From Branchiostoma floridae (lineage: Eukaryota; Chordata; Leptocardii; Amphioxiformes; Branchiostomatidae): DNA of 64,000 bases. This document shows, piece after piece, positions 17,701-32,400 of this stretch. The notes under the pieces are model-generated. The model was not told the origin of the DNA and searched no databases. It saw nothing but the letters and a program-made list of their open reading frames with translations. A program made the translations under genes and the position numbers. Every line of letters begins with the position of its first letter. Position 1 is the stretch's first letter. The stretch covers positions 17,287,617-17,351,616 of the forward strand of contig NC_049992.1 of the NCBI RefSeq assembly GCF_000003815.2, written 5' to 3'.

Positions 17701-20700
17701 ATAACATTCTACTGTATTTTCTTTTTCTTAAGGTATGTGACTAAAAGACAAAAAAATATTAGTTTGAGTAGTTTGAAGTTGAAGGTGAATAGTTCAGTGC
17801 AATAAACACTACCATAAAAAAATGGCAAAAATTAGCATCTACAGTATAGCTCACCCTGGCAAAGTCCAGCGCTTGTTGTAAGGAACTGTTGATGAGTCGT
17901 GTACTGTCTTGAGTCAGCATTGGGCCAGCAAAGAACCTCTCTGCAATCTTGGGCTGAAAATACACAGTAAGAGATCACCAGGCATACTACAGGTGAAAAC
18001 ATCATCTCCAGCACACTTTCATGCTGTCATGAAGCTTACATTTCAAGCAACATAGTAGTGGTTTCAATTTCAAGTTTAGCTCTCTTTTAAAGAATCTATT
18101 ATGCTTTTATATCTTTTAAAATTCAATTTTGCAAGGGGGTGATTTATATGCAAACTCCATTTTTTTTCAGTGGAACTCTTTTTGAACTAGTCCATCTTAA
18201 CTTGAAGTACCCCACGAAGAGTTCATTCTTGCATGGGGGTAGACTTTTTCAATGTTGACTTATGGAACAGTCCATTTTTAGCACGGGGTGAGAGATGGTT
18301 GAAATATGCTGTATTTACTTACAGATGTTCTAGTTCCCATAATTTTTTCCTACACAAATGGAGTGAAAATAACCCTGGAACACTTGAAAATAACACTGCA
18401 GGCAAGGGTAAAGGCAAAGGCAAGAAGTAGGAGCTCCCCCTTGCAGCTCAGCCCTGAAGTGCACCCAAGAGGACAGTTGTCTTCAAAATAAATCTCAAAT
18501 AAACACTGGAGCACTTACATCATCCTCAGCAAAAGCTGAAAGACTGAGGAACTGGCCCAGGAAGGACAGCTTCTGTATCTCCCTCCCTCCAGCCTGGGTC
18601 AGGGTCTCAGGGAGCCAGGTGGTCTGCAGGGCAATCTGGGGGGCAGAAATGTACAATGTAGGTCTGGTATGGTCCCATAGCCTTTAAAGGGGTACTAAAC
18701 TCCAGAAGGGAGTGTTATTTCCAATAGATTATGAATCAATGAATACATCAGCCGACTTTATGCAGAATTCCACTTGTGGTGAAATACGCAATGTGTGTTT
18801 GTGAAACAATATGACACTCAATAAACCCATGCAGACCCTACGTATGCAATACAGTATTTCCAATATGTATAGACATATATGTATAGACAGATATTAACAT
18901 TTTCGGAATAAATAGGGGACGATATTCACCCAAGAAGGCCAATTGTTCAGATTATATCAAAGAACACATAACATGACAAGTTTTTCACATTGCTCCTCAA
19001 ATTGGTTTTGTAACGTAATTTTTAGTATTCAGCCATAGCTTGACATTAGTTAATTCAATTAAAAAATACTTACAGGGCTACTCAATGCTTGATCTACTCA
19101 GGTTGATGCTATTGTGTTGACGGTAATTTTCTAAGTGTTTTAGTGTTACTAAGAATATGATGTTCTTACCAGGTTACAGACAGGTCTGTGGGAGGAAGTC
19201 CCCTTCCGTAGTTCACATAGTTCTGTCAGGGCCTGCAGTTTGTAAAGACAGCATTTTCATATACATCAGCAAAATGTAAATCCTCACTCTGACTCTTAGG
19301 AGAGGGCTTTATAGTGTTCTTTGTTTGGATACAAATCCTATCTTGCTATTTACAAACAGTTGTTGTTCCTGTGGTGCTTGTAGTGCATTGACATATAAAA
19401 GCACATAGAAGACAGGGTGACTACAAAATAACAATTATTGTTCATAAGATACATCACCAGAATATGAAATAAAACAGTAGTTGTTCTGATAAAGTGTCTT
19501 CATTTATAAGTTTCAAAATTGCATTTTCTTGCTTGGTTTAGAGGCACAAGGAACAAGGCAATATGAAATTTAGGCAGGCAATCAGCAAAGAAACAAAACG
19601 TTTGGCCCTGGAAAACACTACTACAAGCCTTACCATGAGAGGGTACTTGTAGTTGTCGTTCTCCATTGAAAACTCAGACATGGTCTGTTGTAAGTCTTGC
19701 AGAACGACACCAATAACCTACAACAGGAAAAAGTAACAAGAATGCATTACAGTTGCCTATCTGAATGTGATGTTTGTTAAAATGAACAGGCTTCAAGAAA
19801 TACTTCAGCTCTAAGTTTCAGTATTAGGACTTTGCTGTTATGATTTCAAAACCCCTAATCTTTAGTTTCCTAATCTTAAGTGAACCAAAATTGTAAAATG
19901 GATGTTTTTTCTTTAAAATTATCTGTTTAATACTAGTTAGACAGTGAGAAACATACATGTACAGAATGTACACCAACAAGCCAATAGCTAATACAAAAGG
20001 CTATAATCATGTAGCTCTGGGGACAGTAACAATACTAAGTCTTGGTCACTGACTCAGTTAGCCATTAGTCTTTCAAGAAGCCTTAAAACACCCCATTTTA
20101 TCTTTAGATCAATTCTCATCAGCTCCATACTACTACTAGAAATCCACACCATCCCCCTACTCTTTCCCTCCTATTTCTAAATGCCTAAGGCTTCATTAAA
20201 TTTTTCCCCCAATAAAATCTGACAGAAGATATGTATGACACTACTGTAATTCATTTCCCGGTACCAAAATTTCACGGCCTAAGAAAAATTATTGTTCTTG
20301 GGACTAAAAGTTCACTGAGGCAGCAGGTGGACATTAAAACATCTCATGTATTATTTGTTATCAGTAATGATAAGTTCACGTTACAGTCATCACCACAAAA
20401 ACCCTGAACACAAAAAATTGAAAAATCAGGAATTACAACTTACTAGTATTTAAAATTCCTTCTCACCCAGGCTTTTAGCCAGGCATGCATCAACGCGTCA
20501 TCTGGATGCACTTTTCTTAGAATAACAAGAAATTTGATGCCCCTGGATGTCCTACACTGGGGAGAAAATCCTCTGACAAGCATGAAATTCTGATTGACCA
20601 GGGATGCTACCAGGTCATCTGTGGTCACAGTCTTCTATTGTGACATCTGTAACAGTATTTTTGCCTCCTTGGATACCTTAGAATGCACTATTTTAACTTA

Positions 20701-23700
20701 AAATCATCAAGAACTCTGCACCATGGAAGGTGGATGCCCCCAGACCCCTCTACAATAGTCACTTATACCGCGACTCACCAATAAGTTTGGACTCCCTATA
20801 ATAAATTTCTAGCTAAAAGCCTGTTCTCACCCCCTGGAAGTCCTCAGGATCCTGACATGCCATCATGACCAGCTCGTGCAGAAACCCCCGCGGCAGGTTA
20901 CGACACAGCAGGTACGGCACCAGGTACGACTGCTTGCCCGGAGCCCGCGGTTCCGTGAAGGCCCCCCGCAACACCAGGATGGCGTGGGTACAGCACTGGG
21001 TCCTCAGGTCGTTCAGGAGAGAGCACACGGGCGGCTGGCTACACCGCTGTTAAAAAAGAAAAGGCATGTTTTGTAAATCTAAATGGCATCATCAGGTTGG
21101 TGGAAGGAAGGTTAAGTATTTGGTAGCGTTTGCTTGGTTGAGTATGTGTATGGATGAACAGCATAACTCAAGAAGCTATGGATGGATTGTCAAAAAATTT
21201 ACTTTTAAAGTTTTACCAACACAAACTTTCAACTTAAAATCAACAGTGTTCATTAGATGAATATGTCAAATTACCAAAATGTAATTACAGTTCATAAACA
21301 CTGTTTGTATTGTCATTTTTTGTAAATAGTATTCCCTTATACTATAACAAGTCAGGGCTCAAAATTCATTTGGGGGATTAGGTGCACTGGTGCACCCTAC
21401 CCAAGAAGCACCACCTAAAATAAAGTAGAATGTCAGAAAAACCAAGTTTGAAACCTACTGAATTACTGCTCTTCAGAGTTTGGTGAACCCATACTCCAAC
21501 TTCAAATTCTTAAGACTATGACAGAACTTTTACTACCTTTGTAACACTTAGTTGTCAAGAATATGGTGCATACTGGTATACTTTGATATCTTTACATACC
21601 TAAACCTTCAAACATTTGTGTGCACCGGTGCGCCCAAAGAAAACAATTGGGTGCACAGTTCCAATTTTGGTGCACTAAGTCGCACCAGTATTTCAAGCCC
21701 TGCAAGTACATCCAAAAGCTAACCTTTGGAGCTGTCCTCTCTTCCATGCCCACCCTGTCAAAGCACTCCAGTAGATAGTTGAGGATCTCTGTCTCCCTAC
21801 AGGCTGGGATATGGAACCTGTCACTGGTGGAGGAGGACGAACTAGCAGAGGCTGTAGCACCTTCTGCACCGGGGCTGGGCAAACTGCAACATCAACAGCA
21901 CAGTGTTCACAAAACATCCCTTACAAGATATTGTAAACACCGCATGAACCAACCATCCATGTAGCAGTGGATACCGTTTTGGACAGGTTTTGACTGGTAC
22001 AACAAGCAAGAAGAGAGTTAAAAATGAAAGTCGTGAGTCATTCTTTTTTTAAGTTGCAGAGGCTGTAGCACCTTCTGCACCAGGGCTGGGCAAACTGCAA
22101 CATCAACAACAACAGCACCACATTTAAAATACTTTAAATGCAGAGACTTTTGTGGCAATTTTGAGTTTGAAGTTTTCGCGTTGCCAGGCCTTTTGCTTGA
22201 CCACAAATTCAAAACCACTGAGAACATTTTCCTTCTGTTTTCTACTTGTGGTGCCTGTGACTCACCCTTCTCAGTTCATGTACATACTATACATTGTAAC
22301 AGTGTTGTAATTACAATATTTCTGAGGTACTGTAATTCCTGATTTTTTCAATGTACTATTATGTTCACGGTTTTCACAGTGACGACTGTAACGTGAACTT
22401 ATCATTACCGATAAAAAATAATTCACAGACTTTTTTCATGCGCACTTGCCTCGACAGTGAACATTTAGTTCCGAGAACAAGTTCAATTTTCTCAGACCGT
22501 GAAAGTTTGGTACCGTGAAGATAAAGTCAATTACAGTACTTGCAACGATGAATACAAACAAATCCTTGCAAGACACACAATTACCCATACTATGTACTGT
22601 AAAACACCATGATAGAAATGTAGTTCTGTACTACGTATCATGAGGGTAACGGTTAGATAAGTGACAAAAGATCACACCAGTACTGTCAAAGTGAAAACCA
22701 GGCTTTTAGCCAGGCATGCGTCAACGCGTCATGTGGACACACTTTTCTTAAGAATAACAAGAAATTTTATGCCCCTGGACGCCCTTACAATGGGGAGAAA
22801 ATCGTCTGACAAGCATGAAATTCTGATTCACTAGGGATGCTACCAGGTCATCTGTGGTCACAGTCTTCTACTGTGACCTCTGGAACGGTATTTTTGCCTC
22901 TTGGGATACCCAAGAATGCACTTTAACTTAAAAAATCATCAAAAACTCTGCACCATGGAAGGTGGATGCCCCCAGACCCCCCCTACAATAGTCACTTACC
23001 GCGACTCACCAATAAGTTTGGACTCCCTATTATAAAATCCTAGCTAAAAGCCTGCTTAAAAGTCATTTATAAAAAGAAACCAGTATCTGGTATATTGGCT
23101 TACCCATGGAAGGGACTGGTACCAAACTTCTTACTGGTGATACTAGACAGGGACTGGGAGGGCGTGGCCGTCAGACTGGCAAAGGGATTGTGGGATTGCG
23201 CCTGTGGCATGGTCAGCACTTCCACTAAGATCTGACTAACCAGGTCCTGTAGACTGTTGTATACTACAGAAGAAGTTGAAAAAAAAGAGTTAGAGATTTA
23301 ATCAACAGCATTACATTTAAAACATGGCAAGGTGGTCCTGTGGTAATCTCCAAGCAGATCCTACGGTAGCATAAGATAGTATCAAAAGCTGGCAGAGGGG
23401 TGTAGCCGGCTTAGGGGTGTGTTTGGCTTGGAGATTAATGCCGACGAAGAAATGGCAGAGTTCTAATCTCCAAGCAGATCCTACAATGGCATATGATAGT
23501 ACCAAACTGGCCAAGGAGTGTAGTCAGCCAAGAGGTGTCCATTTGCCATGTCAAGCAGATCCTACAATGGCATATGATAGTACCAAACTGGCCAAGGAGT
23601 GTAGTCAGCCAAGAGGTGTCCATATGCCCCGGTAGCCAAACACACTCCTAAGCTGGCTACCCATCTGCCAGCTTTTGATACTATCTTATGCTACCGTAGG

Positions 23701-26700
23701 ATCTGCTTGGAGATTATTCCTGTGGTTAGGATCGTAGATTTTTTTAGTACAAAGGTTCAGGGTTCCAATCTCTTTGACATTGTACCCTTCGGAAAGCAGC
23801 CTGGTCCTATTTCTACTGAGGCTCCTTACACTCGCTACCCTAAAAAAAGTTTTTACGGTAGCAAGTGTAAGAAGCTCCGGTAGAAATAGGATGGTACTCA
23901 GGCTATCAGAAAGGCACTTTACACCTATTTTCTCAAAGGACTCTGGTCAAAATGAGTACCTAATATGCACTGAGTCTCTTGTCCTTTACTGTATACCCTT
24001 TATCCCTTTACACCCCCCTCACATTAGGCGAAAATCGATCGGACGACGAGTCTGCGAGCTCTAAATTACGAGGAGGCATGACCCTGACGGGAAGGGGGGG
24101 ACTCTTCCATTTCTTCGTTGGCAGCAGGGTCATGCCTCCTTGTAATATAGAGCTCGCAGACTCATTGTCCGATCGATTTTCGCCTAATGTGAGGGGGGGT
24201 ATTACTGGATATGCAAGCAAACAAATATAAATAGAAGTTCCCACCTTGTTTTGGGTCCTGTTTGAACTCAGCAGCCAGCCCAGGAAGGAAGACAACGTCC
24301 TGTTCAGGTTTCTTCCATGAGACCCGCAGGATCCGACACACTATTGCTAGCAGCTGCTCTTCATTCAGCTCAGAACTACAGCTGGGCTCCTATAGTACAA
24401 GTATAACAGGGAAAACTGCGGTTAGAGACACAGTATCAGGGAAAACTGCAGTTAGAGACACTTGCAGGGTTCTACTTCTAGCCAGCTTGATTTTTTTTCT
24501 GTAATCCTGATAACCATAGTTGGAAAAGGGCAGTGACCCTAATTGACGGCTGTGCAGAAGGTCCCCGGTGAGTCCATACAGAATTGATTTTTAAAAGTAA
24601 CAGAAGATGTGTTTTTCTTTGGAAATGTTGGCATTTCGGAGCTGTATTCTACAGGTAAGGGTTGTAGGGTTTTTTTTATGTTGAAAAACCAGACTTTTAA
24701 GCCTGTTTTGGGTGCCTAGAACACTAGAAAGAAGTTTGTTTTGGTGCTGTGATTCTAATGCCAGATGGGGTCAAAGGTCACCAGGTTGCGTTTGGCTGCA
24801 AATCACGTGTGACCCAGCGGTCAGAAAGTTTCCAAAAGTTGGGAATGGACATTTTAGAGGCCGGGCTACCCTCTCAATGTTAGTTTTTCAAGGACGAAAT
24901 TTCAGGTAGGTGACTTTTGACAGCATCTTTTTGCCATTAAATGCATTATAAGGATAGGGAAGACTGATTGGTGTTCACTGCTCAAAAGTTCTATCAACTA
25001 TAGTCAGTTTAAAGACTTATTTTTTTCCTGCTTTCATGTACAAATTTCTGTCATGGTGTAAAATTCTCAGGCTGGCACTTAAACATGGTTTGTTCAAACT
25101 TGGACTTACTTTTATACATCTTTATCCACTGCCTTTTGTCTGCCATTTGTTGACAGAGTGGTCTCAAAATTGTTCCATCACACGAAGGAAAATTCTTTTA
25201 CATGGAGGAATGATGGGTGGACCAGAGGAACAACAGTCTTCTAAGACTTAATTCTCAAAGAAAGAAGAAAAATCTTCTTTCTTTGAGAGTTAAGTCTTAG
25301 AAGACTGCTGTTCCTCTGGCGGAGTGGTTTCTACTGTTAACAGTTATTGATGCTTTACTGTATACGTGCATGAATATATTTCAAGCCTGGTAACCACAAA
25401 CTCACCCTCTGGGACACAGCACCATCCTTTCTATCTACCTCCTCCACTTCCATGTTCTCTATACCTGAGTCCACATCTATCTGGGACAGAGTCCTGGAAA
25501 AAACGAATCAGACAATCATGATGTGAGTTTTCATACATTGACTCATTCCCTACCTACACATTTGTATCATTATCAGTACTGTAAAAAATGGAGCTATATT
25601 TTTTGGCCTGTTATGTAACCTATACGTGTATTATATTTTATCTGACCCTTACCTCCCTCATGACCTCAATGAAAAGCGGCCTGCTGGCCGATTTGAGCTT
25701 CTCATGAATAAATAAAGGTTCAAACAAACAAACAAACTGTTTGTCTGTGTGCGCATGTATCCGACTCAGGGTTCTCCCCAGAATTTTTTAGTATAGTGAA
25801 GGGGCTGGCAAAAATAAACCGCACCAACGCGTTGCGCTTTCATGAAAATGGGTTCATTTTGCATGACAGAGGGTGTCAAATATTACAAGTATAATATACT
25901 GTTGTGATTCCTTTGTTGTAAAGTGGCAAAACGACTATTGTTTTGATCATTGCTCATTCACAAGTTTTTGCAGACAATGCTGACTGGAAAAGTGATGCCA
26001 CTTGGTACAAAAATCTGTGAGTTGTCATTAATTTTACCAAAACTAACAAAGAAAATAGGGAAGAAACACACTAAATTTGAAAAATAGTATAGTGGAGCTG
26101 GCTGAGAGTATAGTGGAGGGCCTCCCTTATTCCACCCTTTCGGGAGAACCCTGCGACTCAATATCAGATTCTGAAGAATCTCTGGATGGACTGTAATGAT
26201 ACTTGGTACAAACAAGGAGGTTAAAAAAGACAAAGGTATGTGTTGCTATGGTCTTTTTTAACCTCCTTGGTACAAAGGTATGTGTTGCTAGTTAACCTCC
26301 TTGATGAGATGCACCGTGAATCTCCTTATTCCTGCCTTACCCTTTTTCACTATCTGTATCCATACTCTGACTCTGAGACGACTGAGAACCATAGTCTAGA
26401 GTGGCACTAGCCCCAGCCCTCTGTCTCGGCCTGGCGCCTGTCGGGGTGACCGGAGTTGTGGGGGAACTGGGGGTCCGTGGGGAGCGATCCCCCGGGGTCA
26501 GAAACCCAGACTGCAGGGGTGACTGAGCACCCTGGGCAGGAGATGTCAGCTGGCTGCTGGGACTCTGGGAAGGAGAAGTGAGTTGGCTACTGGCAGCTTG
26601 GGTGGGGGAGGTGGGGGTGCTACTCGAGGGGGAGGGGGTGGGGGTGGTTCCTGAGCCCTGGGGAGGGGATGTGGAGAGACCCCCAGCAGCTAAACGTGCC

Positions 26701-27879
26701 AGCCGTCTCCGGCGCATCTGGTAGGGAAGAGAAAGAAACAAAATTTTAGCTACATATCCAAAACTCTGCTCTGCATTATAGTATATCAATTGTAAGCCAT
26801 TTCATGGGTCCAACTAAGACAATTTTAGATGTCCAATTGTCTTACAATGTTTCCTATTGGACATATCATTCTTCATCGACCTAAGCTGTCTATATCCTAT
26901 AGGATATTTTGTAAGACAAGCCAAAACCGTTTTGATGATTTTTTGCATCATGCTACGGCCCCGTGGCACATTGGTACACCCGATCCCTCGATCTCGGAAG
27001 TTAAGCAACGCGCGGTCCGGACAGTTCTTGGATGGGGACCAACCAAGGATGACAGGATTGCTGTAGCCTCACGAAGCTTTCCACGAAATCGTCTTCCGGG
27101 AGGGACGTAAAACGGGGGTCCCGTGCTCGAGGAGGTGCCTCGAACCATGTTTAACAGCCTCGTTACTCATAATTTGGGTACCTACTGGCTGGCAAAATAC
27201 ACCTGGTGATTATTATGGGGCCCTGGGGTTTGTTGTCTCAGTGTCTGTGCAGTTTGCACTGTGTCACCATCTGAAACTGATTAGTAGGTACAAATCGTAC
27301 CCAGATGACGTACAGGGTGACCTTGTCACTTAGAGTGATTCATACCGTCATCAATACGCGATATGATTTAGGAAAACAACAGGGAACAAAATTATATGGG
27401 TCAAGGGCGGGCAGCTATGAATCCGTGAACTCACTACATGAATTTCAGCTCAACTACGGTGGGTGTAGGACTTACTTCATTCTCATTAAAACATAACACT
27501 AGTATTATGGTACTGTTAAACTCAAGGCAGAAAATAGTGCAGTTCCGATTCCGCAAAAAATTGTGCATTTTCATTTCCTGAGTTGCCCCCCACCCTCCCT
27601 ACGCTGGCCGGTTCGTTCCAAACAGTCGGCTTTTTCTCTGGAAGAGCCAAAACAGAGTCTGATTGTTTCTTAACCTTTGTAAATGGCTGCTGATGCGTGT
27701 ACACATTGAGGAGTTGAGAGCACTGTAAACGAAGTAGTTCCACTGAAAAGGGAGGTAGTCGTATAATACTTTATCATAAGCTGTTGCACTGGTGACTCGA
27801 CAGGTTATTTTGACAAAGGGCCAACGCAACAACGCAGCAAAATAAAACAACCTACCTCGTCCTGAGAAAGCTCACTCAT
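2672..27879 (-). CDS. UBE4B: Ubiquitin conjugation factor E4 B (UBE4B/Ufd2), 24 exons, complete
   Basis: This is an E3/E4 ubiquitin ligase that extends ubiquitin chains on pre-ubiquitinated substrates and works with the p97/VCP pathway (family knowledge). Coding exons in transcript order: 27879-27856, 26717-26341, 25493-25406, 24389-24245, 23263-23104, 21874-21724, 21046-20831, 19717-19634, 19232-19170, 18635-18519, 17953-17855, 17311-17108, 16453-16348, 14991-14753, 13840-13713, 13155-13057, 12136-11901, 10960-10834, 9408-9264, 6756-6631, 5122-4931, 4291-4117, 3769-3623, 2724-2672. All junctions are GT-AG, phases agree, and the total is 3,501 bases (1,166 residues). Residues 1-135 start MSELSQDEM then basic RRRR, as in vertebrate UBE4B. 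The Ufd2 core spans roughly 285-1095 and the U-box 1101-1166. The length is close to the shorter vertebrate isoform; the long Ser/Pro insert of the longer isoform is absent. Identification rests on remembered family sequence, not on a search. Confidence 0.96.
3290..3465. mobile_element. Foldback MITE, CCCCCCTCACATTAGGCG termini (copy 1)
   Basis: A 176-base element flanked by TA on each side, with TIRs CCCCCCTCACATTAGGCG. An inner inverted pair, 'aattacgaggaggcatgaccctga', makes most of it a hairpin. It lies in UBE4B intron 23. Another copy is at 24011-24199, and the window's last 17 bases begin a third. Confidence 0.85.
3468..3600 (-). mobile_element. Degenerate tRNA-headed SINE fragment
   Basis: Read on the minus strand, an A-box-like TAGTCCAGTGGTTCACAG is followed about 45 bases later by a B-box-like TTCAATTCCGG. 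The rest of the tRNA fold is not kept, so it is not a tRNA gene. It abuts the MITE on its left. Confidence 0.45.
3623..3769 (-). CDS. UBE4B: UBE4B exon 23 (U-box)
   Basis: Encodes most of the U-box, residues 1101-1149, a zinc-free RING-like fold that recruits the E2. [21 protein letters not shown] and TDPFNRQ (Pro1136, Phe1137) are the conserved segments; the proline lies in the E2-contact loop known from the family. The exon is preceded by a run of T and cagATCC on the minus strand. Confidence 0.96.
4117..4291 (-). CDS. UBE4B: UBE4B exon 22
   Basis: Encodes residues 1043-1100, the helical linker into the U-box. It starts [11 protein letters not shown] and ends SDAPDEFK. The 'DYSDAPDEF'-type phrase just before the U-box is a UBE4B hallmark. 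The donor is AAAG|gtattt and the exon leaves in phase 1. Confidence 0.95.
4590..4924. mobile_element. hAT-like MITE, AGGGCTxGAAA termini and GGTGCACC repeats (copy 1)
   Basis: Ends are AGGGCTTTAAATTC on the left and TTTTCAGCCCTG on the right. The interior carries repeated GGTGCACC blocks in both orientations. Related copies lie at 6295-6603 and 21353-21702. The right end lies 5 bases from the donor GT of exon 21 (GT at 4929-4930). Flanks CTTTACCA and CGTTACCT match at 6 of 8 positions and may be an old 8-base duplication. Confidence 0.65.
4931..5122 (-). CDS. UBE4B: UBE4B exon 21
   Basis: Encodes residues 979-1042, starting [17 protein letters not shown]. It contains the highly conserved [20 protein letters not shown] stretch of the Ufd2 core and ends IANDE. 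Both boundaries are phase 0. A MITE end sits just past the donor. Confidence 0.97.
5214..5574. mobile_element. MITE, AGGTGGGTCACACCTGCGTATATATTCAAG termini
   Basis: Terminal inverted repeats of about 40 bases (GGTGGGTCACACC and its complement, then TATATATTCAAGTCCG). Inside, a 55-base block (about 5392-5501) with 'acctgtttacgtttgtcc' and 'cactatttttacaacgac' is tandemly duplicated. A relative with the same subterminal sequence lies at about 59610-59825. It is in UBE4B intron 20. Confidence 0.65.
6295..6603. mobile_element. hAT-like MITE, CAGGGCTTGAAA termini (copy 2)
   Basis: Starts CAGGGCTTGAAATACTGG and ends TTTCGAGCCCTG, with repeated GGTGCACC blocks. It ends 27 bases from the last base of exon 20. 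No convincing target-site duplication remains. Confidence 0.75.
6631..6756 (-). CDS. UBE4B: UBE4B exon 20
   Basis: Encodes residues 937-978 of the Ufd2 core. It contains the family phrase '[16 protein letters not shown]' and ends with PFLRP. Both boundaries are phase 0. Confidence 0.96.
6757..7990. other. UBE4B intron 19, proximal part, no further gene
   Basis: Intronic sequence. A lone hAT-like end (CAGGGCTGTCTCAAGGACC near 7146) may mark a decayed element, since no matching right end is seen. Short reading frames here (for example 7334-7594) have no codon or motif support. Confidence 0.4.
7991..8503. mobile_element. piggyBac-like MITE, TTAA target site (copy 2)
   Basis: A 513-base element flanked by TTAA at 7987-7990 and 8504-8507, with AGGGGCATTCCACTCC termini. 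It is inverted relative to copy 1, as the internal 'atgggtagggtctgcatggg' reads the opposite way. Confidence 0.82.
8667..8848. mobile_element. MITE, TACTGTAAATGC termini
   Basis: Begins TACTGTAAATACATT and ends GCATTTACAGTA. Inner 'gcggagatttaatttcgcgg' resembles the interior of common chordate MITEs of this type. It directly abuts the target duplication of the next element. Confidence 0.65.
8858..9249. mobile_element. hAT-like MITE, TAGTGGTGCG termini (copy 1)
   Basis: A 392-base element starting TAGTGGTGCGCACCTAAA and ending GGTACGCACCACTA. Flanks are CTGACAAC (8850-8857) and ATGACAAC (9250-9257), an 8-base duplication with one change. The interior repeats 'ggttcaggtccgga'. A second copy is at 40326-40746. 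It ends 14 bases before exon 19's last base. Confidence 0.88.
9264..9408 (-). CDS. UBE4B: UBE4B exon 19
   Basis: Encodes residues 888-936, including [20 protein letters not shown] and '[12 protein letters not shown]'. This is one of the most conserved blocks of Ufd2-type E4 proteins. Confidence 0.97.
9600..9745 (+). mobile_element. LINE 3' end with (ATTC)n tail
   Basis: 'agcttgttagaaagcaataacgtacaataaaggtcttc' runs straight into a run of ATTC repeats (about 9711-9742). A short 3' UTR ending in a simple-repeat tail is typical of CR1-like non-LTR retrotransposons. No coding part remains. Confidence 0.55.
10275..10485. repeat. Tandem duplication, unit about 104 bases, A/T-rich
   Basis: A block with 'gaagattatacatc' then 'aaatttgatttatccagaag' occurs at about 10275 and again at about 10379, nearly identical. 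It is intronic (UBE4B intron 18). Confidence 0.8.
10834..10960 (-). CDS. UBE4B: UBE4B exon 18
   Basis: Encodes residues 846-887, with [20 protein letters not shown] in the core. It enters in phase 1 and leaves in phase 2 (AGCAA|gtaagt). Confidence 0.96.
11472..11899. mobile_element. MITE with 32-base flanking direct repeats, abutting exon 17 donor
   Basis: TIRs of about 34 bases (core ATCTAGACACGGTTTTTGC, then GATATC) lie at 11501-11536 and 11840-11876. A 32-base direct repeat containing AGACACCATCTTGGACTT flanks it at 11472-11503 and 11868-11899, with two mismatches. The right copy runs to one base from the G of exon 17's donor. Inside, a 21-base unit (GCTATCGGGGACCCCTGCTAA) is tandemly repeated near 11684-11730. 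Confidence 0.65.
11901..12136 (-). CDS. UBE4B: UBE4B exon 17
   Basis: Encodes residues 767-845, with [15 protein letters not shown] and [20 protein letters not shown], both landmarks of the Ufd2 core. The open frame continues upstream past the acceptor, but the AG at 12137-12138 and phase fix the boundary. Confidence 0.97.
13057..13155 (-). CDS. UBE4B: UBE4B exon 16
   Basis: Encodes about residues 734-766: [20 protein letters not shown] then [13 protein letters not shown], matching the vertebrate '[14 protein letters not shown]' block. It enters and leaves in phase 2. Confidence 0.96.
13320..13385. repeat. (AGT)n microsatellite
   Basis: Imperfect AGT/GTA trinucleotide runs within UBE4B intron 15. 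Confidence 0.75.
13465..13675. mobile_element. hAT-like MITE, TAGRGGTGGGTAC termini (short copy)
   Basis: Starts TAGAGGTGGGTACT and ends GTACCCACCCCTA. The interior has 'caggttcaggtgtggacctgatcc'. It belongs with 51851-52248 and 56470-57004. No clear target duplication. Confidence 0.65.
13713..13840 (-). CDS. UBE4B: UBE4B exon 15
   Basis: Encodes residues 692-733, with [20 protein letters not shown] then [15 protein letters not shown]. This matches the vertebrate '[25 protein letters not shown]' region in spacing. Phase 0 in, phase 2 out. Confidence 0.95.
14290..14653. mobile_element. hAT-like MITE, CAGTGTTCTAGCCAGC termini
   Basis: A 364-base element ending GCTGGCTAGAACCCTG. Flanks CTGCAAAC (14282-14289) and CCGCAAAC (14654-14661) are an 8-base duplication with one change. 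It is inserted in the outer copy of the exon 14 donor duplication. Confidence 0.85.
14653..14782. repeat. 68-base tandem duplication covering the exon 14 donor
   Basis: The last 28 bases of exon 14, its donor and about 30 intron bases (plus-strand landmarks ACAGTATCTACCTTTTGC and TGCTTTCCATCTCTTTAA) occur twice, 68 bases apart (acag at 14674 and 14742). The copy nearer 14721-14780 is the functional one by phase. Use of the distal donor would add 68 bases and shift the frame into a stop. Confidence 0.88.
14753..14991 (-). CDS. UBE4B: UBE4B exon 14
   Basis: Encodes residues 612-691, with [20 protein letters not shown], then [20 protein letters not shown], ending [11 protein letters not shown]. 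'[14 protein letters not shown]' is a hallmark of the family. The donor is duplicated downstream (see 14653-14782). Confidence 0.97.
15055..15357. mobile_element. Probable MITE, TTTGCACACTG / AGGTTGCACACTG ends
   Basis: 'atttgcacactgtaacc' near 15073 and 'aggttgcacactgtgcaaac' near 15340 are inverted or repeated 'tgcaac' motifs spread across the block. Ends are not exact, so the limits are approximate. It lies in UBE4B intron 13. Confidence 0.4.
15625..16225. repeat. Two GC-rich palindromic repeats in direct tandem
   Basis: The units at about 15630-15795 and 16045-16225 share a 'ctcaggt-gg-atga-ataaaat' lead-in and the phrase TCCCAGCCCTCC. The second has a near-perfect palindrome around CGGCCTTCGGGTGATCCGAC and ends AATACACCATGTTGTATTC, the inverse of its start. 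They look like related foldback elements about 415 bases apart; the GC content stands out from the AT-rich intron. Confidence 0.65.
16348..16453 (-). CDS. UBE4B: UBE4B exon 13
   Basis: Encodes residues 577-611: [20 protein letters not shown], then [15 protein letters not shown]. It matches the vertebrate VDPTYIFHPRCRI..LPNDETR region and is one of the less conserved exons. Phase 0 in, phase 1 out. Confidence 0.95.
17108..17311 (-). CDS. UBE4B: UBE4B exon 12
   Basis: Encodes residues 509-576: [20 protein letters not shown], then [20 protein letters not shown] and [13 protein letters not shown]. It aligns throughout with the vertebrate protein. Both boundaries are phase 0. Confidence 0.97.
17855..17953 (-). 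CDS. UBE4B: UBE4B exon 11
   Basis: Encodes residues 476-508: [20 protein letters not shown] then [13 protein letters not shown]. Both boundaries are phase 0. Confidence 0.95.
18519..18635 (-). CDS. UBE4B: UBE4B exon 10
   Basis: Encodes residues 437-475, with [20 protein letters not shown] then [14 protein letters not shown]. Vertebrates have 'YLGAFFSFSVFAEDD' here. Both boundaries are phase 0. Confidence 0.96.
18688..19140. mobile_element. piggyBac-like MITE (copy 3, right end decayed)
   Basis: The left end AGGGG follows a TTAA at 18684-18687. The interior matches copy 1 in order ('gacactcaataaacccatgcagaccctac'). The right TIR is not recognisable. It sits between exons 9 and 10. Confidence 0.7.
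19170..19232 (-). CDS. UBE4B: UBE4B exon 9
   Basis: A 63-base exon encoding residues 416-436: [20 protein letters not shown] plus L. It is too short to stand out as an open frame; it was found by homology, GT-AG sites and phase 0 at both ends. Confidence 0.95.
19634..19717 (-). CDS. UBE4B: UBE4B exon 8
   Basis: An 84-base exon encoding residues 388-415: [20 protein letters not shown] then DNYKYPLM, like the vertebrate LDSDYFKYPLM. Both ends are phase 0. Confidence 0.94.
20242..20438. mobile_element. MITE, TACTGTAATTC termini (copy 1)
   Basis: Starts TACTGTAATTCATTTCCCGG and ends near 'ggaattaca'. It shares 'taatgataagttcacgttacag' in inverted orientation with 22328-22540. The right end is imperfect. 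Confidence 0.6.
20468..20823. mobile_element. hAT-like MITE, CAGGCTTTTAGC termini (copy 1), target site = exon 7 donor
   Basis: A 356-base element starting CAGGCTTTTAGCCAGGC and ending CTAGCTAAAAGCCTG. A perfect 8-base duplication TTCTCACC flanks it at 20460-20467 and 20824-20831. Read on the minus strand this is GGTGAGAA: the last base of exon 7 plus the first seven intron bases. A related copy is at 22699-23054. Confidence 0.93.
20831..21046 (-). CDS. UBE4B: UBE4B exon 7
   Basis: Encodes residues 316-387, with [20 protein letters not shown], then [19 protein letters not shown]. The vertebrate '[21 protein letters not shown]' aligns here. It is GC-rich relative to neighbours, and both ends are phase 0. 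Confidence 0.97.
21353..21702. mobile_element. hAT-like MITE, CAGGGCTCAAAATTC termini (copy 3)
   Basis: Starts CAGGGCTCAAAATTCATTTG and ends TTTCAAGCCCTG, with the GGTGCACC blocks of copies 1 and 2. It ends 21 bases before the last base of exon 6. Confidence 0.78.
21724..21874 (-). CDS. UBE4B: UBE4B exon 6
   Basis: Encodes residues 265-315: a Ser-rich start, then [20 protein letters not shown] and [13 protein letters not shown]. This begins the conserved Ufd2 core. In vertebrates a 129-residue optional insert precedes this point; no such exon is seen in intron 5 here. Confidence 0.96.
22056..22110. repeat. Intronic duplicate of the exon 6 acceptor and first bases
   Basis: Plus-strand GCAGAGGCTGTAGCACC, then TGCACCAGGGCTGGGCAAAC, copies 21846-21900 with one clear change. 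It duplicates the exon 6 acceptor and about its first 28 coding bases, some 200 bases upstream in the intron. There is no donor, so it is a dead or decoy acceptor. Confidence 0.85.
22328..22540. mobile_element. MITE, TACTGTAATTC termini (copy 2)
   Basis: Starts TACTGTAATTCCTGATTTTT and ends GTCAATTACAGTA. It is inverted relative to copy 1 at 20242. Confidence 0.68.
22699..23054. mobile_element. hAT-like MITE, CAGGCTTTTAGC termini (copy 2)
   Basis: Same length and orientation as 20468-20823 and highly similar to it. The flanks show no 8-base duplication. Confidence 0.85.
23104..23263 (-). CDS. UBE4B: UBE4B exon 5
   Basis: Encodes about residues 212-264, with [20 protein letters not shown] then [18 protein letters not shown]. 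It matches the vertebrate [24 protein letters not shown]. Phase 1 in, phase 2 out. Confidence 0.95.
23344..23716. mobile_element. Long-TIR element, TAATCTCCAAGCAGATCC, 9-base target repeat
   Basis: TIRs of about 55 bases (TAATCTCCAAGCAGATCCTA, then GGTAGCATAAGATAGTATC). Flanks gtcctgtgg and ttcctgtgg match at 8 of 9 positions, which with long TIRs recalls Mutator-like elements. The interior holds a tandem duplication of about 75 bases carrying CAAGCAGATCCTACAATGGC (near 23471 and 23555). Confidence 0.78.
23798..23904. mobile_element. Small foldback element, AGCCTGGTCCTATTTCTAC arms
   Basis: The left arm AGCCTGGTCCTATTTCTACT and the right arm ending TAGAAATAGGATGG-ACTCAGGCT fold around a short T-rich loop. 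A related fragment may be near 49465 ('cactcgctgccctaaaggta'). Confidence 0.6.
24011..24199. mobile_element. Foldback MITE, CCCCCCTCACATTAGGCG termini (copy 2)
   Basis: Close to copy 1 at 3290-3465, with the same paired 'gaggcatgaccctga' arms. The right flank is TA; the left is less clear. It ends 46 bases from exon 4. Confidence 0.85.
24245..24389 (-). CDS. UBE4B: UBE4B exon 4
   Basis: Encodes residues 164-211: [20 protein letters not shown], then [20 protein letters not shown] and EFKQDPKQ. Vertebrates have '[20 protein letters not shown]' here. Phase 0 in, phase 1 out. Confidence 0.95.
25221..25319. repeat. Near-perfect 47-base hairpin
   Basis: Arms from CCAGAGGAACAACAGTCTTC to TTCTCAAAGAAAGAAGA pair with the following sequence at 45 of 47 positions around a loop of about four A. 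It sits in UBE4B intron 3 and would be transcribed. No TIR family was recognised for it. Confidence 0.85.
25406..25493 (-). CDS. UBE4B: UBE4B exon 3
   Basis: Encodes about residues 134-163: [20 protein letters not shown] then RKDGAVSQR. Vertebrate [20 protein letters not shown] aligns almost exactly. Phase 2 in, phase 0 out. Confidence 0.95.
25620..25742 (+). mobile_element. LINE 3' end with (CAAA)n tail
   Basis: 'ggccgatttgagcttctcatgaataaataaaggttcaaacaaacaaac' is a CR1-like 3' UTR and tail. A relative ('aaggccgatttgagcttattgtgaata') occurs near 41335. Confidence 0.6.
25767..26153. mobile_element. hAT-like MITE, CAGGGTTCTCCCCAGAA termini
   Basis: Starts CAGGGTTCTCCCCAGAATTT and ends TTTCGGGAGAACCCTG. 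'AGTATAGTG' repeats lie near both ends. Flanks share only 'cgact'. Confidence 0.75.
26210..26306. repeat. Hairpin plus direct repeat
   Basis: CAAGGAGGTTAAAAAAGAC pairs with GTCTTTTTTAACCTCCTTG around 'aaaggtatgtgttgctatg'. The loop phrase and AACCTCCTTG then repeat once more. It lies about 35 bases from the exon 2 donor. Confidence 0.75.
26341..26717 (-). CDS. UBE4B: UBE4B exon 2 (Ser/Pro-rich N-terminus)
   Basis: Encodes residues 9-134: [13 protein letters not shown], then a long low-complexity Ser/Thr/Pro/Gln stretch ending [13 protein letters not shown]. The vertebrate N-terminus has the same order ([12 protein letters not shown] ... SRSQSMDIDG). This part is probably disordered. Its first Met is an internal codon, since exon 1 supplies the start. 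Confidence 0.94.
26950..27165 (+). mobile_element. SINE with 5S rRNA-derived head
   Basis: GCTACGGCC ... CGATCTCGGAAGTTAAGCAA ... TTCTTGGATGGG-GACC ... GCTGTAGCC follows the order and spacing of 5S rRNA with changes. It is followed not by a gene end but by a tail ('gggagggacgtaaaacggggg', 'gaggtgcctcga') that also ends tRNA-headed SINEs here (39.0 and 39.3 kb). So it is a 5S-derived SINE, not a 5S gene. It is in UBE4B intron 1. Confidence 0.8.
27856..27879 (-). CDS. UBE4B: UBE4B exon 1 (start codon)
   Basis: Only eight codons: MSELSQDE, then GT. Vertebrate UBE4B starts MEELSADE, which settles both the start and the junction to the RRRR block in exon 2, some 1.1 kb away. Confidence 0.93.
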
Positions 27880-28060
27880 CTTTCACCGTCCTGTATGGCT
27901 TCTTATGCTTTCTCTACTACTAAAATATGAAGTCTGATATCGATATATCTGCCACGATAGCGAGAAAATCGAGTCGAATTCGAGGACTGCGAAATTTTCA
28001 ATGAAAAACACAGTTTTCCGCCATCTTGGATATGACGTCATATGAAATGGTCACATGACT
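27880..28060 (-). promoter_or_regulatory. Probable UBE4B promoter: YY1-like motif and CRE
   Basis: About 140 bases upstream of the start codon lie CCGCCATCTTGG (28018-28029; CCAAGATGGCGG on the coding strand, a YY1-type promoter motif) and TGACGTCA (28033-28040), a perfect cAMP response element. No TATA box is evident. The site matches are direct; promoter function is inferred from position. Confidence 0.65.
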
Positions 28061-28867
28061 TTTTTTTTGCCCACGCCTCAGAGGCGATGCCACTCATGGG
28101 ATCGAGAGGACAAAATGCCCTTGACGCATCATTGGTCGTCGCCTCAAAGGTCATTCAATGATGGTAGGGAAGTCATAGATGTTTGGATCCCTCCTCATAA
28201 TTGCCCTCCTCCGCGTCACAATTGCTCATCTAGAGAAGTGTGTTGGTTGCAGGAGTTTGATACCCGAGGGTCCACCATGTTTGGACGTCTCATCCAGACT
28301 ATCTGATCGTTATTGTGACGTAACCATTGATATTGAATTACTATTTGCTGTTTGCACAATCACTTGTTATGTTTATGTTTATGACGATTTTACCTAAGGC
28401 AATGTTGCCAAATATGTATTCATGTTTATATTTGTGGTGTCATTTTTAAAGAACGGTTTAACAAGACAGAAGTCTCTGTGATTGCTTTTTGCAGAAGACC
28501 TACAGAAGACGTGTGTTTTCCCAAGCGCTTTTTGTAAGAGAGGGACAATTTCTAACACAAGTAAAGATAACTGTAAATTGTGAAACAACTGTTAGTGTCC
28601 CGGGAAGTATAGGATGGAGGGAACTTTTTTTTCAATGGATTCGTGTCACCTACCATATCAATAATCGATTATTGCATTTGATAGGATAAAGCAGAATTAG
28701 CCTTAGGTCAGTTAGGAACTTAGGACATACACGGAGGGCGGACGATTCACCATTTCACAGCGTCACCTAGCGAAAAAATAGCTCACTACACAACGACACC
28801 ATACATAGTATTCCGGCATACATACACAAAACAAACACCAGATGAAATATGTAAATGTAACTGAAGT

Positions 28868-28873
28868 TTTATT
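28868..28873 (-). terminator. Candidate Vax poly(A) signal AATAAA
   Basis: TTTATT on the plus strand gives AATAAA on the coding strand, 242 bases past the Vax stop codon. It is the first such signal downstream and would put the Vax 3' end about 1 kb before the UBE4B start codon. Confidence 0.55.
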
Positions 28874-29114
28874 CTCAATTCCTTAGCAACGATTAATTTC
28901 AACTTGCCAGAAATGTCTCGTTGAAGAATTTAATACAGAAGCTACTCGATAAAACGGTGAAATTGAACTCCTATTGCTAAAGATTAAACCAACAGCTAGC
29001 GCTTATAAAACAATATAACCAACTACTAGTATCTGTAAACAAACGTTTCACAGATTGTCCGATATCTAATGGAAAATATTTTTCACAAATGTACTACCGA
29101 AAAATGCAGTATCT

Positions 29115-29492
29115 TTAATGGACATTATCGTAGTTTTGTTTCGATATCAGGGAGAAATTTGGCCACGTTGAAGGAATAGCTGGCCGTGGACGGATATCTT
29201 GATGTACTGAAGGCTGCCAGCCTGCATCTGTGTACGTAGGAACATAATTCCCCTCAATTCGCGAGACGCACACGTTACTGACAGGTTGTTGTTCCCGTCT
29301 TCCCAGATCTCGCACCTCCGACGATCTCGCGAGAGTATGCACAGGGGTTAGAGGGTCGCTAGGCGGCGCCGTTTGCAGGAGTTTCCAAATGTTCAGGGCG
29401 GCGAGGGTTTCGGAGTTGGCTTGTGTCTTCTCGGCTTCCCGGGCCTTCTCACGCTTGTATTTCGTCCTCCGGTTCTGGAACCACACTTTGAC
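29115..29492 (-). CDS. Vax: Vax exon 3
   Basis: Begins [20 protein letters not shown], recognition helix residues 45 on, and ends [10 protein letters not shown] before the stop. The acceptor is ctccacag|GTC in phase 0. The tail is otherwise poorly conserved. Confidence 0.92.
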   Translation of the reverse strand, partial: VKVWFQNRRTKYKREKAREAEKTQANSETLAALNIWKLLQTAPPSDPLTPVHTLARSSEVRDLGRREQQPVSNVCVSRIEGNYVPTYTDAGWQPSVHQDIRPRPAIPSTWPNFSLISKQNYDNVH

Positions 29493-32400
29493 CTGTGGAG
29501 CATAAGATTCTTATAAAGGGAGATATATTTTCTGATGCAGCTCATTCGACGACTTAACTTTATTCTTCTTGAAGAGCATTGAATAATACATTGTATTTAT
29601 GTGAAATGTTTTAGCTTTCTTGGATGCTTGGATACTTAATTAGATGATTCAACAGTCTTCTTAATATTGCCAAACAAATGTTGATTTTAAAGTGGTAGTC
29701 CCCTCTGTTCCTTTGAAGTCAATTAGAACATCATGTCGACCGCACAGGATTATATCTCATCTAGAAATCGTTTTTAAGTTCATGTGCTATTCTTTGCTTT
29801 ATCTTTCTACCGGTAGGAGGTATGACACGCAAACCATGTACTAACATGTATACATCTAATTATCTACTTACTAGTATTTGATTATTCATTGACCTGCTAT
29901 TAAAAAAATTGATAATATTGTATAATATATTGTTTTCAATATTTGTACAAGTGGAGGCGCTTCGTGTTCGTACTTTTATTTGTATCACTTCTTGTAGTCT
30001 AAAGGTGCACTCTCACTGCACTTGCGTCAGGCTTGCGTCACTGCGGGATTCGAAAGATACTCAACGAATTTCAGAGGTACAAAACGAATTTTTTTTTACT
30101 TTTTGTGTATTTTGTCGTCTTCTAAGTCATACTTTTACGTATTACGCAATTTCTAAATTATAAAAGAAAAATGGAAAAAACAACAAAACAGTAACGCAGT
30201 GAACGAACCCCGCAATGACGCAAGCTTGGCGCAAGTGCAATGAGAGTGCACCTTTGAATAAAAACGAATGTTTACCTGTGTTTCCGTAAGTCGCAGTTGC
30301 CTGGCCAGCTCTGTCCTGTCTTGACCAACCACGTACTGGCTGCCCTGGAAGGCCCTTTCCAGGTCCTTCAGTTGGTCAGCGGTGAAGGCGGTCCGGGCTC
30401 TCTTCGGCCGGTCGATGTCCAGTGCCCGGGGCAATACCATCTCCTTGACCTCACCCTTCGGCGCTTAACAATATCATAATGATAAATTAATTTTTTTTGC
30501 ACAATTCATCCTCGTATAGGCTAATTGAAAGTGAAAAAACAGTCAATGATAATGCATAAGCATAAATTTAAAGCCAAGTAATGGTGGTATCTCACTGCAC
30601 GTGTGACACTGCGGGGTACAAAATCATTCAACGAATTTCAGAGATAAAGAACAAATTTTCTTACGTTTTTTTTTATTCTGCTGTCTTCTAAGTTATACTT
30701 TACGCATTACCCAATATCTGATTATAAAAAAAATGGCTTAAATAACAAGTACCGCAGTGAACGAACCCCGCAGTGTCGCACTGGTGCCCCAAGTCAGTAA
30801 GACAGACAACGTTTCTGGATTATTTTACCTATCATGTCCTACATCAACGTTACTAGAATTAAATCAATACTGGGTTTGACTTCTAACTTGAAGGCAGTGG
30901 GTAATACAAAGCCAATGCTGATTTCAGAATGAATGCAGTTTTATTCAAATTCTTACCCAAAAAGCTCGTTGACATTTTGAACAAGTAATCTATTTCTTTT
31001 AAACTCGAATTGGAGAACATTCGCTGATTAAATGCGTTTCATTTTTCACTGCATTCTTTGCAAACTGTTTTAATATTGTACGACGAACATGTTGCGTTTT
31101 CAAAATATATATATTTTCTCTATTTCTAACAATAAACCATAGTACTAAGAACATAATATCCTGGTTGCAATATTCGTATACTGGAAATGAATACACGTAG
31201 ATTTCATTATAAGGTAAAAGAATGGACACAACTAACGACAGTCTGAGGAAGATCCGTTTAGTATGCACAATCAAAACAAAACCTTTTGTGTATATTTAGA
31301 TATGTATAATATAGTTATATGTACATTGTAAAAATATATCAGTATGTTGAGCCACAGACACATGTATGTGTTATGTATGTTCTGTGCAGGGAAAAATAAC
31401 ATAAAGGTCCAAACGTTTTTTGAAACTTGGATTATCGTTTTAACAACTATGCTATTTTATATTTGTTAACTAAAACAAAGTTTGATCGCTGTTTAGTATT
31501 ATTGAGCAAGATGTGGTGGGGATAGACGTTGCACAACTTGAGATCGTCGTTTGTCTTGCCTACCTAAGCTTATATTTGTATGATATCTTGCGACTTTAAA
31601 AGTTTCAACCTACACATATATACATGGCAATGCTTTTTACCAAGTTTTTTTACCGAGTGAACAAAGTAGATCCTAGTCACCTAGTGGTAGACGTTGATAT
31701 AAATTCGTTACCAAATTCATCATGAAATTTCTCTTTATTTTTAACGTAACGGGCATGTACGAAACATTTACCGTATTGTATGCTCTGGCCCTATAAGGTG
31801 ATTTATTTTCAAAGACGAACTGGAGTTAGCGGCTTTGAATAAAGATATGTTTGTCCTGGCAAAATTATTTTGATATTCAGCATGCTAGTTGTTGTCACAT
31901 CCAAGATTCATCTGTACATATATCAGTTTGCCAAGAAAGTAACTAAAACGGAGAAAGTCTTGGTTCCAAATGTGAGCTCATCCAAGTTGCGACGTTTTCA
32001 TCCTTAGTTTTATTTTTAAAATTTCATTTCTATGACTTCTATGTTTTTGCAAATTGTTTTTTTTTTGTTGTTGTTTAATATACTTTTGCATGAATATTGT
32101 TTCCTCTGAGTAACGATTGCTGTCTTTATATTATATTCTCAGGTTGGGGTAACTTAAATCCGTAACAAAAACAAAAATCATATTTTTAAAAAAAAAATCG
32201 AAATTTAAGAGTCTCCTCATAAGTATTCTAGTTCAATTCTAACTGAGACGAAAGTTCCGCGCTTAACTATACATACTTAACGTTACCCCCGAAGGAGGAA
32301 TGTACTCGTAGAACATTCGATTCAGCCTACCTTTTACAAGTATCCTCCTGTAGTTTTGAGTCGTCTCTTCCTGTTCTGAAGCCATTCTTTCTCTCTTCCT

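Follow-up and report, generated by a model that had tools for sequence, protein, structure and literature searches.

In a 64,000-nucleotide stretch of Branchiostoma floridae DNA (hereafter the window), the splice donor octamer of an exon of the gene that we call UBE4B stands on both sides of a short transposable element. We consider it very likely that a hAT transposase acting in trans put this non-autonomous element into an existing UBE4B 5' splice site, the donor being duplicated as the target site. Staggered target cutting is known hAT biology. The empty target site would have had the sequence CAGGG-GGTGAGAA-GGAATTTT; cutting of this target with an 8-base stagger, followed by repair, would leave GGTGAGAA on either side of the element. 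The duplication itself is visible in the sequence, with GGTGAGAA on both sides of the MITE. The octamer covers -1 to +7, which left the exon with a complete donor, and the MITE forms part of the intron from +8 onward. The locus would be a clear example, found in nature, of a transposase whose staggered cut duplicates a splice site and so preserves it.

The duplicated splice donor of UBE4B

The element occupies positions 20468-20823 (plus strand) and, as written, is antisense to UBE4B. Its length of 356 bp follows from ends that were set by the terminal inverted repeats (TIRs), by a second copy in the window and by copies elsewhere in the genome. The TIRs, CAGGCTTTTAGC at 20468-20479 (plus strand) and at 20812-20823 (minus strand), match perfectly over 12 bp. 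An exact octamer, TTCTCACC on the plus strand, lies at 20460-20467 and at 20824-20831 and encloses the 356 bp. A sequence-only reading of this DNA had proposed an 8-base duplication around 20468-20823, and its coordinates proved exact to the base. The octamer occurs four times on the two strands of the window, compared with 2.44 occurrences expected from shuffles, and two of the four lie exactly at the ends of the MITE. Exact 8-base repeats at the same spacing start at 34 of 62607 window positions (approximately 0.0005).

On the gene strand, the exon-proximal copy of the octamer (20824-20831, minus strand) consists of the last base of a UBE4B coding exon and of +1 to +7 of its donor, which is what the same reading had held. 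This exon (20831-21046, minus strand), putatively exon 7 according to the sequence-only reading, comprises 216 nt or 72 codons in an open frame, with the acceptor TTTTTTAACAG and the donor GTGAGA; it closes with the codon GGG, and GTGAGAA comes next. The 72 codons up to 20831 run in one frame into the next exon (19634-19717, minus strand; 84 nt, acceptor TTCCTGTTGTAG), so that the frame is intact over the junction. The insertion point, described earlier as six to seven bases into the intron, is after +7. The distal copy (20460-20467, minus strand) is the identical octamer and constitutes a potential second donor 364 nt downstream, in agreement with the distance that had been given.

The name UBE4B was assigned through other exons of the gene. 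In Pfam, exons on the minus strand of the window gave matches to the Ufd2 core, with E values from 1e-29 to 2e-14, and to the U-box, at an E value of 2e-21; the best PDB matches of the U-box are UBE4B chains. When the 216-nt and 84-nt exons were joined, the pair gave no Pfam or PDB match at E values up to 10. The 216-nt exon is called UBE4B by its place in the gene and by its likeness to the human protein, whose sequence aligns without a gap at the junction of these two exons. A motif search of 26500-31000 for the first UBE4B coding exon gave no match. Upstream of UBE4B, pieces of a homeobox gene are present on the minus strand at 29118-30464.

An allele lacking the element was sought by searching this assembly with the exon and its adjoining upstream intron (477 bases). 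Among the best 40 of 128 candidates, which were scored, the only exon-wide match was the locus itself, and the other 39 fell on a repeat at window positions 21103-21215; none of those scored was a haplotig lacking the element. This repeat lies in the intron before the 216-nt exon, and related sequences with identities of 75-95% are present at 39 or more places in the genome. By eye, the start and acceptor of the preceding UBE4B exon (minus strand gttgatgttgcag|TTTGCCCAGCCCC) also appear repeated approximately 210 bases upstream in the intron, the two stretches being 21850-21902 and 22060-22110; the repeated stretch holds a second possible acceptor.

A family of related elements

The genome, 513,431,437 bases in 431 contigs, was searched with the MITE. 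This yielded at least 40 scored matches, the element itself included, out of 1587 unscored first-look candidates; the 39 other scored matches are 93-95% identical to it. The second window copy (22699-23054, plus strand) is 90.6% identical and lies two introns upstream in UBE4B, with the similarity ending at the element ends. It was added to the 39 scored matches in a survey of the flanks of 40 other copies. Its own flanks, GTGAAAAC and CTTAAAAG, agree at five of eight bases, and this copy therefore lacks a clean duplication. An exact 8-bp duplication flanks 31 of the 40 copies, and four more match at seven of eight positions; in the remaining five, the flanks match at 6, 5, 4, 3 and 1 of 8 positions. 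The copies with three and four matching positions have a truncated right end, and the copy with one is apparently shifted by one base. Exact direct repeats of 3-7 or of 10-12 bases were found in none of the 40, while repeats of two and of nine bases occurred once each.

The full 356 bases were matched in 37 of the 40 other copies. A consensus built from 41 copies spans 354 bp, and its longest stop-free frame has 55 codons; the family is thus non-coding, multi-copy and uniform in length. The 41 copies diverge from the consensus by 1.1 to 4.0%, the UBE4B copy being the most distant at 3.95%. Because 39 of the 40 others were picked for their likeness to the UBE4B copy, the family is perhaps older than these values suggest. 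Amphioxus heterozygosity is reported as 3.2-4.2% (PMC12500494); set against the 3.95% divergence of the UBE4B copy, an insertion of such age may have gone to fixation or may still segregate in the population. Folded as single-stranded DNA, the MITE goes slightly beyond its shuffles (z -1.95; 4 of 100 shuffles equally good). The first 20 bases had no exact counterpart in viral contigs.

The two window copies, at 20468-20823 and 22699-23054, are in direct orientation and bracket two UBE4B coding exons. Recombination between them would remove both exons.

Assignment to the hAT superfamily

The hAT TIR tip has the consensus YARNG; the tip found here, CAGGC, fits at four of five positions, the fifth being C where the consensus has G. 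The perfect 12-bp TIRs lie within the length range of 5-27 bp that is given for hAT elements (PMC3517528). The 8-bp length of the duplications, exact in 31 of 40 copies and matching at seven of eight positions in four, is likewise that of a hAT MITE, and the Drosophila MITEs Mar and Vege were first placed in hAT by 8-bp duplications and short TIRs (PMC3517528).

We also examined the base preference of the duplications, counted over the 35 with at least seven of eight matching positions. T was present at position 2 in 18/35 and A at position 7 in 18/35 (36/70 pooled), which corresponds to a weak nTnnnnAn preference, one of the two hAT target patterns considered (nTnnnnAn for Ac/Hermes, nnnTAnnn for Buster). 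Compared with flank composition, which was taken from 41 loci of which one is not a MITE copy, P was 0.008 at position 2, 0.008 at position 7 and 0.0002 for the two pooled, as calculated after the counts had been seen. Position 3 is nearly as biased, with T in 15/35, and the UBE4B octamer fits nTnnnnAn at one of the two positions only, on either strand. The nTnnnnAn target preference is reported for the hAT element Hermes (PMC10368747). From the 12-bp TIRs, the 8-bp duplications and the lean towards nTnnnnAn, we conclude that the element at 20468-20823 is, by its sequence features, a non-coding hAT-type MITE, and the earlier description of it as hAT-like is borne out by these duplications and this preference.

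The two donors

In the distal donor, TGG|GTGAGAAG, position 20467 is the last base on the exon side; from -1 to +7 this donor does not differ from the proximal one. In a simple duplex calculation, pairing with the 5' end of U1 amounts to -9.3 kcal/mol for each. Use of the distal donor would extend the exon by 364 nt, from 216 to 580 nt, and would add the five codons VRTGF before an in-frame TAG inside the TIR at 20812-20823, which would terminate the read-through exon. When the RNA of the region was folded, the result was no better than for shuffles (z 0.02). The probabilities of being unpaired at +1/+2 were 0.30/0.50 for the distal donor, 0.18/0.21 for the proximal donor and 0.26/0.56 for the joined empty site; given a fold no better than that of shuffles, the greater openness of the distal donor carries little weight. 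RNA folding, as modelled here, does not support the choice of the proximal donor.

Judging from the sequence, we expect use of the proximal donor, with the distal donor silent or feeding decay. Splicing most likely continues at the exon-proximal donor, and the element and the distal donor would leave with the rest of the intron. If the distal donor were used, the 580-nt exon with its stop after five added codons would presumably give a minor product destined for nonsense-mediated decay. Two donors that share the same bases from -1 to +7 within one intron, 364 nt apart, would permit a direct test of the choice made by the spliceosome.

Alternative explanations

Identity of the two donors and their equal pairing with U1 would also suit a MITE that works as a tandem-donor switch, in which both sites are used and the distal one gives a poison exon, with less UBE4B output as a result. 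The early stop in the extended exon and the slightly more open distal donor point the same way. However, differences in a fold that is no better than shuffles weigh little, and the switch would require an exon of 580 nt in place of 216; we regard this reading as unlikely. Slightly less likely still is a live 5' splice-site switch in which the distal donor is active in some tissues or alleles, the MITE poison exon tunes UBE4B and the insertion is perhaps polymorphic.

Creation of the intron by the insertion, an introner-type gain, would be suggested by the finding (PMC9860276) that the duplication can supply introners with a 5' splice site. In such a case the element alone makes up the whole new intron, whereas here the intron extends approximately 740 bases past the distal duplication, outside the MITE, to a frame-fitting acceptor at 19718, which makes an intron gain highly improbable. 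The octamers at the UBE4B site might finally match by chance, with no real duplication behind them, and the second window copy, whose flanks agree at five of eight bases, could be taken to favor this. Against it stand 31 of 40 other copies, whose corresponding ends carry exact 8-bp repeats, and the rarity of exact octamer repeats at this spacing in the window (approximately 0.0005 of positions), and we give chance almost no credence. Insertion into an existing donor by a hAT transposase remains our preferred explanation.

Chance or targeting

An insertion copies the whole donor core (-1 to +6) only if the 8-base target starts at one of two positions. Assuming approximately 200,000 introns in 513 Mb and a family of approximately 1600 copies (unscored candidates), approximately 1 insertion in 1300 would be expected to copy a whole donor core, that is, about one per family of this size. 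We also considered, and rejected, a preference of the family for inserting into splice donors. GTRAG on either strand was present in one of 41 left-hand flanking octamers, compared with 0.6 expected at equal base frequencies, and the single octamer was that of the UBE4B site itself; there is therefore no sign of targeting. The UBE4B insertion has the appearance of an accident that is rare but to be expected, and preservation of the donor by the duplication may be why it was tolerated.

Relation to known systems

The Drosophila hAT MITEs Mar and Vege resemble the lancelet element in being short and non-coding and in having 8-bp duplications and TIRs of 11-12 bp (PMC3517528). As reported there, the Mar TIR reads CAG(G/A)GGTAGGC, and copies of Mar are also found in or near genes. 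In the same account, Mar and Vege measure 610 and 884 bp, compared with 356 bp here, and the duplications of Mar lean towards nnnTAnnn (Buster), whereas those of the lancelet MITE lean towards nTnnnnAn.

Introners, as described in PMC9860276, share with the UBE4B insertion a MITE-like DNA element and a 5' splice site inside the target-site duplication. They make a new intron, whereas the UBE4B MITE only lengthened an existing intron and doubled its donor. The drawing of splice sites from duplications by introners is the better-known relative of the donor-doubling process. A MITE is also linked to a change in gene structure in the amphioxus PRHOXNB intron with LanceletTn-2 (PMC5802833); that case is reported as an intron gain, whereas no intron was gained in UBE4B. 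We found no description of the UBE4B MITE insertion among the titles and abstracts listed by searches of open-licence papers. The insertion neatly illustrates a known process and does not represent a new kind of element.

Another repeat, recognized by eye, is present in two copies of opposite orientation at 20225-20445 and 22327-22535. It contains the stretch gttcacgttacagtc and has ends like tactgtaattc, and it appears to belong to a MITE family other than that of the neighboring element.
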